Shown piece by piece: positions 2,366 through 29,744 of a stretch of 64,000 bases of DNA. A model generated the notes under the pieces. The model saw only the letters and a list, made by a program, of their open reading frames with translations, was not told the DNA's origin and made no database searches. The stretch is from Salinigranum halophilum. Its GTDB lineage: Archaea > Halobacteriota > Halobacteria > Halobacteriales > Haloferacaceae. Position 1 is the stretch's first letter, and each line of letters begins with the position of its first letter. A program made the translations under genes and the position numbers. The stretch lies in the NCBI RefSeq assembly GCF_007004735.1, contig NZ_ML660182.1:366130-430129 (forward strand). Direction: 5' to 3'.

Positions 2366-4132
2366 TCAGATGAGTAACACGGCGACGGTCACCGCGAGGA
2401 CGAGCGTCACGAGCACGATACTCGTCCCGATGTCGGCAGTCAGTCGGGTCGGCTCCCCGTCGCCGAGCCGTGCGAGCACCGACCGGGGGTCGGTGACCAC
2501 GGTGTGTGCGAGGCGCGTCGTCGCCACGGCCGCCCGGTCGACCGCCGCGTACAGCTCCGTCGTCCCGACGACGAGGGCGCGGCTCCCGTACAACACGGCC
2601 GGGTTGTAGAGGTCGTCGACGTCGGGCACCCGTTTCACTCGGGACAGCGGTTTCTTGACGAGGACGAAGCCCACGAGTCCAGCCACCGCGAGGGCCAGTC
2701 CCTCCACGATGTGGTCGACCGTGTACGTCGTGTACGCGTGCGAGACGACCGCCTCGGAGGTCACGTCGTACGGCAAGAGCCCGAACAGCGCCGAGTCGAC
2801 GACGCCGAAGAAGACACAGAGGACGGCCACGGTGACCATCGCGACCGACTGACCGATGTTGGCGTCGGCGACGCTGCCCTCGTACTCGCCGTGGAAGAAG
2901 GCGTAGTAGCCGAACTTGATGAACGACATGAACGTCCCGACGCCCCCGACGAGGAGAAGCCACTCGAGGGTGGTCCGCCCGCCCACGTAGAGCGGTCCCT
3001 TGGCGAAGTCGTAGTGGCTGGCCGCGATGACGATTCCCTTGCTGACGAAGCCGTTGAACAGGGGAAAGCCCGCGATGGAGAGCGCGGCGACGACGAACGC
3101 GACGGCGGTCAGCGGCATCTCGCGACCCAGCCCGCCGAGTTTCTTGAGGCTCTCGGTCCCGGTCCGGTAGACGACGACGCCGGCGGTCATGAACAACAGC
3201 CCCTTGTAGAGGATGTGGTTGAACACGTGCGCCATCGCACCCGCCTGTGCCAGCGTCGTCCCGATGCCGACGCCGGCGATCATGTAGCCGACCTGTGACT
3301 GGATGTGGTACGAGAGGAGCCGCCGCATGTCGTTCTGGAACAGCGCCATCGTCGCGCCGAAGACGGCCATGATGCCGCCCATGTACGCGATGGCGAGCTG
3401 TCCCTCGGGGAACGCCCGGTACATCCCGTAGACGCCGGTCTTGGTGGTGAACACACAGAGGAAGACGCTCGCGGCGATGTGCGGCCGCGGGTAGGTGTCG
3501 GGCAACCAGGCGTGCAGACCGACGAACCCGACGTTGACGCCGATGCCGACGGCCGCGAGAATCGGCGCGACGGGGCCCGCGATGCCGCCGTCGGTCGCGG
3601 TGAAGAGGAACGAGCCGACCTCGACGTAGTGCCAGATGACGGCTCCCAAGAGGAGCGTCCCGCCGATGCCGTGCAGTATCGCGTATCGGTAGCCCGCTCG
3701 CACCGCCCGGCCGCCGTAGTGCCAGACGAGCAGCGTGCTCGTGACCGCCATGAGCTCCCAGAAGAAGACGAGCGACAGCCAGTCGCCACCGAAGACGGCC
3801 CCGAGGCTCGTCCCGACGTACGAGAGCGCGAAGGCCGTCTGGAGCGAGTCGGCCTCCGAGTACCACGAGTAGAGCACGGCGACCGCGCCGATGAGGCCGA
3901 AGACGAGCCCCATCAGCGTCGAGAACGCGTCGACGTTGTACAGCACCGCGTCGAACCCGAACAGCGCGACGGGGAGGTGCTGTCCCGCCGGCGACAGCCA
4001 GACGTACGGGACGACGACGCCCGTCGCGACGATTCCGAGGACGTGGCCGGCTCGCCGACCGAGGAACGGGATGACGAGCGCCGCCAGCAGGACCGGCACG
4101 AACGGCGGGAGGAACGGTTCGACCGAGACCAT
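2366..4132 (-). CDS. mrpD: Mrp antiporter D-like subunit, third copy (proton-conducting membrane subunit)
   Basis: This 588-residue polytopic protein belongs to the NuoL/M/N-MrpA/D antiporter-like family and is last in the operon. The TM5 glutamate is present (FFWELMAVTS, E126) and so is the TM8-type lysine (TTKTGVYG, K231). The usual TM7 lysine before HxWLPD is asparagine here (GVNVGFVGLHAWLPD, N200). The GF-x-SK motif of TM12 is present (NGFVSKG). A long C-terminal soluble and TM extension follows about residue 470. The ATG shares one base with the upstream stop (TGATG at 4130-4134), so translation is likely coupled. It probably takes part in sodium or proton exchange coupled to the membrane potential. 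Confidence 0.9.
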   Translation of the reverse strand: MVSVEPFLPPFVPVLLAALVIPFLGRRAGHVLGIVATGVVVPYVWLSPAGQHLPVALFGFDAVLYNVDAFSTLMGLVFGLIGAVAVLYSWYSEADSLQTAFALSYVGTSLGAVFGGDWLSLVFFWELMAVTSTLLVWHYGGRAVRAGYRYAILHGIGGTLLLGAVIWHYVEVGSFLFTATDGGIAGPVAPILAAVGIGVNVGFVGLHAWLPDTYPRPHIAASVFLCVFTTKTGVYGMYRAFPEGQLAIAYMGGIMAVFGATMALFQNDMRRLLSYHIQSQVGYMIAGVGIGTTLAQAGAMAHVFNHILYKGLLFMTAGVVVYRTGTESLKKLGGLGREMPLTAVAFVVAALSIAGFPLFNGFVSKGIVIAASHYDFAKGPLYVGGRTTLEWLLLVGGVGTFMSFIKFGYYAFFHGEYEGSVADANIGQSVAMVTVAVLCVFFGVVDSALFGLLPYDVTSEAVVSHAYTTYTVDHIVEGLALAVAGLVGFVLVKKPLSRVKRVPDVDDLYNPAVLYGSRALVVGTTELYAAVDRAAVATTRLAHTVVTDPRSVLARLGDGEPTRLTADIGTSIVLVTLVLAVTVAVLLI

Positions 4133-26550: not shown

Positions 26551-27267
26551 TCAGCCGAGATGCGCGTCGGTCACGCGGATCCGCCCGCGCGTCCCGCTCC
26601 ACTCCGTCTCGTACGTCAACTCGATGGGCCGAGACATGTGTGGGCCGTCGGTGACGAGCGTCTCGAACTCGCCGCCCTCGCCGAGGACGTGGACGCCGTA
26701 CTCCTCGTTGAGCGCGCGGAGTTCGTCGACGGCCTCGGCGTCGAGCGTCCGCCCGAGCCACGATTCGTCGAGGCCGTGGGCGGCGACCTGCACGATGAGT
26801 ATCTCGAACCTGGCGTCGAGCATCTCCTGCGCCAACTCCTCGGGGTCGCGCTGCCAGAGGGGGGCGAACAGGTCGACGCCGAGGCGGTCACACATCGCTC
26901 GGATGCGCGACGTCTGGAACTCACTCTCGATGGCCCCGGCGGTGACGCCGACGAGGTCGACCTCCTCCCGAAGCTCTCGGAGGGCGGTTTCGAGGGGTTC
27001 GACCTCTCTGTCGCCCTGGGCGGCCGAGTCGGTCGCGTCCGTCGCTTCGAAGTTCCCGGGGTCGACCTCGACGAGGTCGATTCCGATGCTCTCGGCCGCC
27101 AGGCTCGCCAGCTTCGTCTCGGGCACGTGGTACATGTACGACCCCGAGTCCTCACCCGGGTGGACCGTGAGGAGTCGCGTGACGTTCAACCCCGCTTCGA
27201 GCGCTCGGTACAGCGCCCACGAGGAGTCCTTACCGCCGGAGAAGAGACTGACCCAGTCGTCCGTCAT
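26551..27267 (-). CDS. dph6: Diphthine-ammonia ligase (Dph6-like PP-loop ATPase)
   Basis: This 238-residue PP-loop enzyme probably performs the last step of diphthamide formation on elongation factor 2, using ATP and ammonium. The pyrophosphate loop is SLFSGGKDSSWAL at residues 7-19. The family signature EFQTSRIRAMCDRLGVDLFAPLWQRDPEELAQEM and the closing GEGGEFETLV are present. Length is typical for archaeal MJ0570-type proteins. The ATG at 27267 is supported by GTTTAC at 27291-27296. It is the first of three PP-loop genes within 3.2 kb. Confidence 0.92.
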   Translation of the reverse strand: MTDDWVSLFSGGKDSSWALYRALEAGLNVTRLLTVHPGEDSGSYMYHVPETKLASLAAESIGIDLVEVDPGNFEATDATDSAAQGDREVEPLETALRELREEVDLVGVTAGAIESEFQTSRIRAMCDRLGVDLFAPLWQRDPEELAQEMLDARFEILIVQVAAHGLDESWLGRTLDAEAVDELRALNEEYGVHVLGEGGEFETLVTDGPHMSRPIELTYETEWSGTRGRIRVTDAHLG

Positions 27268-27308: not shown

Positions 27309-27449
27309 TTACTCCCGTTCCCTGCCGCCGTCCGCTCGGGGGTCGGCCTCGTACAGTTCGGCGTACACGGACGCCCACGCGTTGGCGCGACAGCGACGCG
27401 GGACACGACGGAGGCGCAGACGCGACAGGAGGGACGCGATTCGAGACAT
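27309..27449 (-). CDS. 46-residue Arg-rich ORF under a DtxR-like palindrome
   Basis: The codons from ATG at 27449 to TAA at 27309-27311 encode 46 residues. They begin MSRIASLLSRLRLRRVPRRC, are strongly basic for the first half, continue ANAWASVYAELYEADP and end acidic/hydrophilic. A TATA-like CCGTTTTGTCC (27475-27485) lies about 27-36 nt before the ATG. A perfect 16-nt inverted repeat (27451-27466) occupies positions -2 to -17. The promoter-operator geometry is better evidence for a gene than the protein, which I do not recognise. Confidence 0.5.
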   Translation of the reverse strand: MSRIASLLSRLRLRRVPRRCRANAWASVYAELYEADPRADGGRERE

Positions 27450-27450
27450 C

Positions 27451-27466
27451 TTTAGGCCCGCCTAAA
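27451..27466 (-). promoter_or_regulatory. DtxR/IdeR-like operator
   Basis: TTTAGGCCCGCCTAAA is a perfect inverted repeat (7-bp arms, 2-nt centre). Its core TTAGG-N4-CCTAA has the spacing of the DtxR/IdeR consensus core. It covers the presumed start point of the 46-codon ORF, as expected for an iron- or manganese-dependent repressor site. Confidence 0.55.
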
Positions 27467-27535
27467 ACGTCGGGGGACAAAACGGTGTCGGTCAGTCACA
27501 CGGCCGGCGAGCGCCGGTGGTCGGGCGCGGACGTG

Positions 27536-27553
27536 TGTGACGTCGACGTCACA
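27536..27553. repeat. 18-bp perfect palindrome over the stop codon of the first CysD-like gene
   Basis: TGTGACGTCGACGTCACA equals its own reverse complement and spans the TGA at 27549-27551. As RNA it could fold into a hairpin at the gene end. The paralogue has a related repeat at the same place. Confidence 0.75.
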
Positions 27554-28496
27554 TGTAGCCCAGGTCGCGGAGGCGCTCCATGAGGTTCTCCTTGTCCTGG
27601 GCGCGGCCGGCGCGTTCGGTGGTGTGCTCGAGGTCCTGCACCCACGCGGGGCGGTCGTCGGACCGCTCCGAGCCGGTCTCGGTGCCGAGCGACCGGAAGC
27701 CCTCGAAGTACTTCTCGGGCACTGGGATGTCGTCGAGGGCGACCCCGTCCGGGAGGTCCGTCCGCGACTGTGGGGCGTGGCCGGCGGGGAACTCGTCAAC
27801 CGAATCGGGGACGACGAAGTGCCAGAACGCCTCCCAGAGGTCGGCCTCCGTGAACTGGAGGATGGGGTTGACGCGGTCGTGTGGCGGGTACTTCTCGGCG
27901 TCGTGCCGGGGGGAGAAGAACGTCTCTTTCGCGCGGGAGGCCTGCTCGTCCCAGCGGACGCCCGAGAACACGCCGTCGAAGTCGTACTCGACGATGGCGT
28001 TGTTGAGCGCGATGGTCTTCAGCAGGTGGTTACCCTCGAACGAGTCGGGATCGACGACCATCGTCTCTCCCTCAAACTCGATGCGGTCGAGTTCGCGGCG
28101 GTTCTGCTCGTTCAGTTCGTCGACTCGAACCTCGTCGCCGAACGCCCAGCCGTGCTCGAAGAAGTCCTCGTTGCGGGCGACGACGAGGTCGAGGTCCCAC
28201 TCGTCGACCCAGTGGTCGACGAAGTCCCGGACGTCGTCGAGACCCTCGAAGTGCTCGATGTAGACGACCGGCGGCACCGGAACACCGAGGTCGGCGGCCA
28301 CCTCGCGGACGACGTAGAGCACGAGCGTCGAGTCCTTCCCACCGGTCCACATGACCGCGGGGCGTTCGTACTGTTCGAGCGCCGTGCGAGTGACGTCGGC
28401 GGCGACCTCGAGTTTCTCCTCGAGGGTCGGATAGTCCGCAGCCGTCTGGCCAGCACCGAACTCGTAATCCACGGCGACGTGGTCTAAGGAGGTCAT
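27549..28496 (-). CDS. CysD-like PP-loop ATPase (annotated family: PAPS reductase), paralogue 1
   Basis: This is a 315-residue PP-loop protein. The loop MWTGGKDSTLVLY is at about residues 58-70. A second signature GVRWDEQASRAKETFFSPRHD resembles the RRDE-x-x-SRAKE-R-x-x-S-x-R segment of sulfate adenylyltransferase subunit CysD. It contains no cysteine at all, so a thiol-dependent PAPS reductase mechanism is excluded. No CysN GTPase gene lies nearby. The start at 28496 follows from TATAGCTATG at 28521-28530. It is about 60-65 percent identical by eye to the next gene, including the last 25 residues. Confidence 0.82.
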   Translation of the reverse strand: MTSLDHVAVDYEFGAGQTAADYPTLEEKLEVAADVTRTALEQYERPAVMWTGGKDSTLVLYVVREVAADLGVPVPPVVYIEHFEGLDDVRDFVDHWVDEWDLDLVVARNEDFFEHGWAFGDEVRVDELNEQNRRELDRIEFEGETMVVDPDSFEGNHLLKTIALNNAIVEYDFDGVFSGVRWDEQASRAKETFFSPRHDAEKYPPHDRVNPILQFTEADLWEAFWHFVVPDSVDEFPAGHAPQSRTDLPDGVALDDIPVPEKYFEGFRSLGTETGSERSDDRPAWVQDLEHTTERAGRAQDKENLMERLRDLGYM

Positions 28497-28766
28497 CGAC
28501 TGACGGTGGCGGTGAGGGGGCATAGCTATAGGTGGGCTATCCCTCCCGGTAGGTCCGTCCTACGCCCGCTCGACGCAGGTCTCGGCACGGTAGGAACGCC
28601 ATACCGCAGCACGGGTAGTCGATTCCGTGCGAACTGCTGTAACCGTGATACTGGATGTGTCTCTGCCCGCGACTCGACAGTGGATGTTTCGAAACCACAC
28701 GGCGAAAGAGGAAACGTCGGTTGCAGTCAGGCCGAGGTGTCCGCGTCCGTCAGCTCCGTCGCAGCG

Positions 28767-28783
28767 TGTGACCCGTCGTCACA
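28767..28783. repeat. Inverted repeat over the stop codon of the second CysD-like gene
   Basis: TGTGAC (28767-28772) and GTCACA (28778-28783) are separated by five nt and overlap the TGA of the gene that ends at 28779. It occupies the same position as the perfect palindrome at 27536-27553. Confidence 0.65.
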
Positions 28784-29744
28784 TGTAGCCCAGGTCGCGG
28801 AGGCGCTCCATGAGGTCCTCCTTGTCCTGGGCGCGACCGGCGCGCTCGGTGGTGTTCTCCATGTCCTGCAGCCACGCCGGTTCCTCGGCGGACTTGTCGG
28901 TGGAGACCTCGCTGCCGAGCGAGCGGAAGCCGGCGAAGTACTTCGGCGAGACCGGGATGTCCGCCATCTCCAGCCCCTCGGGGAGGTCCTCGTCGCTCTG
29001 GGGGACGTGCCCGGCGGGGTACCCCTCGACCGTCTCGGGCACGACGAAGTTCCAGAAGGCGTCCCAGACGTCGGGCTCGGCGAACTGGAGGATGGGTTGG
29101 ACGCGGTCGTGCGGCGGGTAGATGTCCGGGTCGTGCCGCGGCGAGAAGAACGTCTCGTCGGCGCGGGCTTCCTGTTCGTCCCAGCGAACCCCGGAGATGA
29201 CGCCGTCGACGTCGTACTCCTCGAGCGCGTCGTTCAGCGCCACCGTCTTCAGCAGGTGGTTGCCGACGTAGGTGTCGAGCAGGAAGGGGAAGGTGTCCTC
29301 CTCGTACTCCAGCAGGTTGCGGATGTGGTGCTGATTGTGCTCGGAGAGCCCACTGACCTCGATGTCGTCGCCGGGGCTGAGGCCGTGTTCGTCGACGTAG
29401 TCGCCGACGTCCTCGTTACGCGCCCAGATGACGTCGAGGTCCCACTCGTCGGCCCAGTGCTTGCAGAAGTCGATGAGTTCGTCGAAGTGCTGGTAGTGGT
29501 CGATGAACACGACAGGCGGCACGTCGAGGTCGAAGCGGTCGGCGACCTCTTTGACGAAGTACAGCGTCAGCGTCGAGTCCTTCCCACCGGTCCACATGAC
29601 CGCGGGGTTCTCGTACTGCTCGAGACCCACCTTCGTGACTTCGATGGCCTTCTCGATCTTGTGCTCGATACTCGGGTAATCCTCGGGACTCTCGCCCTCG
29701 CCGTCGGCGTAGTCGACGTCGATGTAGTCGGGGAACGCTGACAT
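28779..29744 (-). CDS. CysD-like PP-loop ATPase, paralogue 2
   Basis: This 321-residue tandem paralogue has the same PP-loop (MWTGGKDSTLTLY, about residues 54-66), the same GVRWDEQEARADETFFSPRHD block (SRAKE changed to ARADE) and an almost identical C-terminus (TTERAGRAQDKEDLMERLRDLGYM). It has a single cysteine (IDFCKHW). Loss of the Ser-Arg-Ala-Lys pattern suggests divergence of substrate handling between the copies. The upstream region has no clear TATA at -27 but contains palindromes. The substrate is unknown; sulfate or another oxyanion is possible. Confidence 0.82.
   Translation of the reverse strand: MSAFPDYIDVDYADGEGESPEDYPSIEHKIEKAIEVTKVGLEQYENPAVMWTGGKDSTLTLYFVKEVADRFDLDVPPVVFIDHYQHFDELIDFCKHWADEWDLDVIWARNEDVGDYVDEHGLSPGDDIEVSGLSEHNQHHIRNLLEYEEDTFPFLLDTYVGNHLLKTVALNDALEEYDVDGVISGVRWDEQEARADETFFSPRHDPDIYPPHDRVQPILQFAEPDVWDAFWNFVVPETVEGYPAGHVPQSDEDLPEGLEMADIPVSPKYFAGFRSLGSEVSTDKSAEEPAWLQDMENTTERAGRAQDKEDLMERLRDLGYM

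Follow-up and report, generated by a model that had tools for sequence, protein, structure and literature searches.

The locus lies within a window of 64,000 nucleotides (the whole stretch of DNA analysed), and the genome around it, of 4.2 Mb, is haloarchaeal and belongs to the genus Salinigranum. A small ORF and its upstream elements are situated between two larger genes:

26551-27267, minus strand: downstream gene, diphthamide synthase family (Dph6-like; Pfam PF01902, E 1.6e-58)
27309-27449, minus strand: small ORF of 46 codons plus stop, encoding the 46-aa protein MSRIASLLSRLRLRRVPRRCRANAWASVYAELYEADPRADGGRERE
27451-27466, no strand: predicted DtxR/IdeR-type operator TTTAGGCCCGCCTAAA, 1 nt 5' of the ATG
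27475-27485, minus strand: TATA-like element CCGTTTTGTCC, with GGTTTTGT or GGCTTTATG at the aligned position in congeners
27486-27504, minus strand: GTGTNAC..ACCGACAC-like inverted element directly 5' of the TATA-like box, conserved in four of four Salinigranum genomes as judged by eye
27549-28523, minus strand: upstream gene, PAPS-reductase-domain protein (Pfam)

A preliminary description of this DNA had proposed an ORF of 46 codons with its ATG at 27449, and both coordinates and frame are correct. The DtxR-like site that it placed at 27451-27466, with a TTAGG-N4-CCTAA core, was confirmed in the sequence: the forward strand reads TTTAGGC-CC-GCCTAAA and the minus strand TTTAGGC-GG-GCCTAAA (27466-27451). 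The site had been called a perfect palindrome; its 7-bp arms are indeed perfect, but the 2-bp centre is not self-complementary, so the term does not strictly apply. A TATA-like element had also been assigned to 27475-27485 and is found there on the minus strand. With regard to the upstream side, two PAPS-reductase-domain paralogues lie next to each other (27549-28523 and 28779-29744, minus strand) and share the C-terminal sequence ERLRDLGYM. This tail is kept directly 5' of the small ORF in only one of the congeners checked (G003).

Each of the three other Salinigranum genomes searched has an orthologue of the small ORF, with identities of 66-75% and E-values from 4e-16 to 6e-18. Across the four genomes, 27 residues are invariant, including the core VPRRCRANAWASVYAE, pairwise dN/dS values range from 0.10 to 0.40, and the core codons show synonymous differences only. 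These sequence comparisons indicate that the small ORF is a genuine small protein gene under purifying selection. Its start is well defined: a TAG within the TTTAGG of the operator closes the frame on the upstream side, so that the ATG at 27449 is the only ATG, GTG or TTG start 5' of the conserved sequence. The protein has a basic N-terminal part, a conserved RRxRAxAWAxVY core and a charged C-terminal tail. In the AlphaFold model it forms two helices (residues 3-13 and 18-32), with a pLDDT of about 90 only around residues 21-30, and the model does not decide among the possible functions of such a small protein. Profile searches with the window protein returned zero matches in Pfam, NCBIfam and PHROGs.

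The operator is conserved along with the protein. All four Salinigranum genomes carry identical arms, TTTAGG and CCTAAA, whereas the four central bases vary (CGGG, TACA, CATA and TAGG), a pattern resembling that of an operator. The gap between palindrome and ATG is 1 nt in each of the four. Conservation of frame and palindrome in relatives, which had been suggested as a check, was thus observed in three of three congeners with identical spacing. Within the 64-kb window, TTTAGGN4CCTAAA occurs once, against a mean of 0.00 and a maximum of 0 in 100 dinucleotide shuffles. An operator followed by a single nucleotide and an ATG was matched 14 times in 167 genomes of the family, while the control pattern gave 0 matches; in each of the three congeners, no place other than the small ORF fits. 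A chance palindrome was ruled out by the shuffles together with the genome-wide excess over a control pattern described below.

The TATA-like position of the congeners (GTTTTGT or CTTTATG) keeps an identical spacing to the operator. In archaea, the usual distance between the TATA box and the transcription start is 25-28 nt. Counted from the TATA-like element, this distance would place the start within the operator, 2-7 nt 5' of the ATG. The inverted element directly 5' of the TATA-like box may be a BRE/activator site or a site for a second regulator.

Ten TTAGGN4CCTAA sites are present in the host genome, compared to two for a reversed control pattern; the counts in the four Salinigranum genomes are 10, 7, 16 and 10, against 2, 2, 3 and 0 for the control. 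Several sites lie directly before genes, namely those for an ABC solute-binding protein with its permease (SBP_bac_6/8 and BPD_transp_1 in Pfam, a metal-type importer), an RGP-type glycosyltransferase-like protein, a NifU-domain protein, a DUF5059/plastocyanin-domain lipoprotein and a DUF7552/DUF7551 protein. A tandem pair precedes DUF7260, which is followed by a DtxR-family gene bearing both DtxR Pfam domains, and a gene for a FecB-type binding protein has tandem near-match sites. As judged from the Pfam domains of the neighbours, the site is common to several metal genes and one DtxR-family gene, as expected of a DtxR/IdeR-type operator. This gene content would be that expected of an iron regulon, and it points to iron rather than manganese as the signal.

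Tandem DtxR-type operators 36-37 bp apart are common elsewhere in these sequences (L052:7615 and 7652; L053:9548 and 9585), which suggests cooperative binding by two repressor dimers. Unlike the tandem-site loci, the small ORF has a single operator site. The large lipoprotein with DUF5059 and plastocyanin-like domains (L053:7069-9543) carries two close-set operators and a third one 88 bp further upstream, and a link between blue copper and iron limitation is possible.

The small ORF proved to belong to a wider haloarchaeal family of about 33-64 aa with the core RRxRAxAWAxVYxxLFG. A profile built from the four Salinigranum proteins retrieved ORFs of 51-52 aa with the pattern MxxGPRRQRANAWAWVYxALFG in other genera. 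The same Salinigranum-only profile detected the small ORFs of DtxR operons in the expected operon slot, at E 1.5e-4 and 3.2e-4 per genome. The reverse search recovered the window ORF at 1.1e-12, although the window ORF was itself among the 31 rows of that model. Iterated profiles found members in 58, and then in 73, of 392 haloarchaeal genomes, and profile searches placed the family in at least 28 of the 96 haloarchaeal genera sampled. In unrelated genera, searches using the protein alone found members beside DtxR, DUF7260 or DUF7551. The window ORF shares both the RRxRAxAWAxVY core, which defines the family by homology, and the location, in a DtxR operon or under its operator, with its site 1 nt 5' of the ATG. 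For the shortest solo members (33-39 aa), profile scores are modest, and their assignment to the family also relies in part on operator context. Weak first-pass protein matches in relatives (E 0.008-1) were mostly noise and were reused as control loci.

The other members tested gave no family-database match apart from one at an insignificant E of 0.32, and the family profile gave no matches in the PDB. The family is absent from Pfam, NCBIfam, PHROGs and the PDB. Given the operators and DtxR operons with which its members are associated, the 46-aa protein is probably a small component of archaeal iron control that has been overlooked. On plasmids, a tblastn search with one member gave no matches, whereas the use of the DtxR gene as bait succeeded. 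A member on Haloferax mediterranei pHME505 (L184:~3320-3501) lies just before the DtxR gene and is not listed in the PLSDB gene table, whose coverage is known to have gaps.

The genomic context was scored for 53 distinct members, an operator being counted within about 400 nt upstream. An operator was found upstream of 33 of them, against none of 24 control loci, and the remaining 20 stand in a DUF7551/DUF7260/DtxR operon context. A scripted check gave DtxR downstream, DUF7260 upstream or an operator at most 400 nt upstream for 50 of the 53; with the start correctly assigned, the operator precedes the ATG by a few bases in L170 and L172, and the last member has DUF7551 upstream. The operon order is DUF7551-DUF7260-smORF-DtxR, and in 17 of 24 operon cases the stop of the small ORF overlaps the DtxR start as ATGA. 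Among the first four loci outside Salinigranum, three small ORFs follow DUF7551 and DUF7260, with DtxR next in two of these, and the fourth is preceded by no more than a short DUF7260-like fragment. Solitary copies, 33-53 aa long, occur in several genera and, as in the window, follow an operator, which lies 6-75 nt before their start. Two members annotated as hypothetical proteins, WP_160113943.1 of Halobellus limi and WP_227379146.1 of Haladaptatus halobius, are encoded beside iron ABC transporter genes; the former ends an iron-transport operon, with DtxR not directly behind it.

In the host itself, the DUF7260-DtxR operon (L052:7843-9366) has a gap at the slot of the small ORF, where profile searches found no copy or relic. 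A close orthologue of the DtxR of this operon is present in one of three congeners, and the two others still keep the small ORF and its operator. Other DtxR-family genes are present in all Salinigranum genomes compared. Given this gap and the lack of a close orthologue of the operon DtxR in two congeners, a different DtxR paralogue may act as the cognate repressor, and the pairing of the small ORF with the operon's DtxR appears not to be obligatory.

Taken together, the window very probably contains a gene for a small protein with a DtxR-family operator lying across its promoter, and this gene would be induced upon iron starvation. The suggestion that a DtxR-type operator places a small protein under metal regulation is thus supported by the conservation in congeners, by the occurrence of the operator at metal-related genes and by a family tied to DtxR operators and operons. 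In cells replete with metal (most likely iron), a DtxR-type repressor in its metal-loaded form would occupy TTTAGG-N4-CCTAAA, which spans the predicted transcription start, and prevent synthesis of an mRNA with little or no leader. Iron limitation would release the repressor, and the 46-aa protein would then be made along with the products of the other operator-marked genes. The regulation is well supported by sequence, through conservation, operator, candidate regulon and operon linkage; from these we infer the transcription start, the iron signal, repression, the partner and the molecular action.

As to that action, the overlap of reading frames seen in many genera implies joint synthesis of the small protein and the repressor, which favours a partner or modulator. 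Through its conserved basic-aromatic helix, the protein would bind the DtxR-type repressor, or else DUF7260/DUF7551, and modulate its target as a feedback or metal-handling partner. We tentatively regard this as the most likely action, and it is favoured over a role as an iron-sparing effector or as a transporter accessory. A broader proposal is more speculative: the haloarchaea-wide family of 33-64 aa might form a DtxR partner set with DUF7551 and DUF7260, in which the peptide from the overlapping ORF directly tunes how the repressor is loaded with metal or binds DNA; in several lineages it would have become detached and stand alone under the operator of the repressor as a feedback peptide.

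An iron-sparing effector, similar in role to FbpA, FbpB and FbpC of Bacillus subtilis, would be a basic peptide acting on RNA or on a second protein to shut down iron-using pathways; such a role is rather doubtful. The arginine-rich core, the induction class suggested by the operator and the solo operator-borne copies outside operons in several genera are consistent with such an effector, but in many genera the small ORF is strongly coupled in translation to DtxR and DUF7260, which argues for an operon partner. It is unlikely that the protein is a membrane-peripheral accessory of metal uptake (ABC or siderophore import) that adjusts transporter activity, in the manner of MntS in the manganese balance of Escherichia coli. 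The location of the Halobellus limi and Haladaptatus halobius copies, the solute-binding protein gene under the same kind of operator and the predicted helices would fit this role; however, the protein lacks a hydrophobic transmembrane stretch, and no conserved transporter gene is adjacent in Salinigranum. With regard to the signal, DtxR-family repressors include both iron and manganese types, and the best NCBIfam relatives of the operon DtxR are MntR models, albeit far below the cut-off. An MntR-like response to manganese is nevertheless quite improbable, as the sites precede the NifU protein gene and, in relatives, iron ABC transporter genes. Finally, the small ORF is adjacent to the dph6-like gene in all four Salinigranum genomes, where the sequence downstream of it is also conserved, but a leader peptide through which the operator would control dph6 is very improbable and was rejected on the codon conservation of its amino-acid core, which is under strong purifying selection, and on the separate conserved TTTA box 28 nt before the dph6 ATG, while solo relatives elsewhere keep operator and ORF amid other surroundings.

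The small-protein family offers archaeal iron control a concrete and easily tested component, and it may be relevant to the way in which one network is shared among three DtxR paralogues. An operator-guided search can also recover genes that are too short for annotation.

The locus resembles the known DtxR/IdeR/MntR regulons, including those of the published Haloferax regulators Idr, SirR and TroR (PMC11349517), in that the interrupted palindrome TTAGG-N4-CCTAA marks the promoters of genes linked to metals as well as that of a DtxR-family gene. It differs in that the target is an undescribed small protein and that the putative regulator of the site is assigned to the DtxR type from the motif. 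The DUF7551-DUF7260-DtxR operon of haloarchaea (PF24420 and PF23921 for the two DUFs) holds family members immediately before DtxR, whereas the Salinigranum small ORF stands alone before dph6 under its own operator. In Escherichia coli, the small protein MntS is repressed by MntR and acts in manganese balance (PMC4361602). It is likewise very small, and its gene is directly controlled by a metal-uptake repressor of the DtxR family; in contrast, the family described here is archaeal, is often co-translated with the repressor gene and probably responds to iron, and no sequence relation is claimed. The Fur-regulated small proteins FbpA, FbpB and FbpC of Bacillus subtilis (PMC7430163) are also small and arginine-rich, and the protein described here is, like them, expected to be induced by iron starvation; the likeness is one of size, composition and expected induction, but control in Bacillus is by Fur instead of a DtxR-type repressor. 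While bacterial small proteins under metal repressors are known, the family described here is conserved, is spread throughout haloarchaea in step with the DtxR iron regulon and has no entry in the family databases searched.
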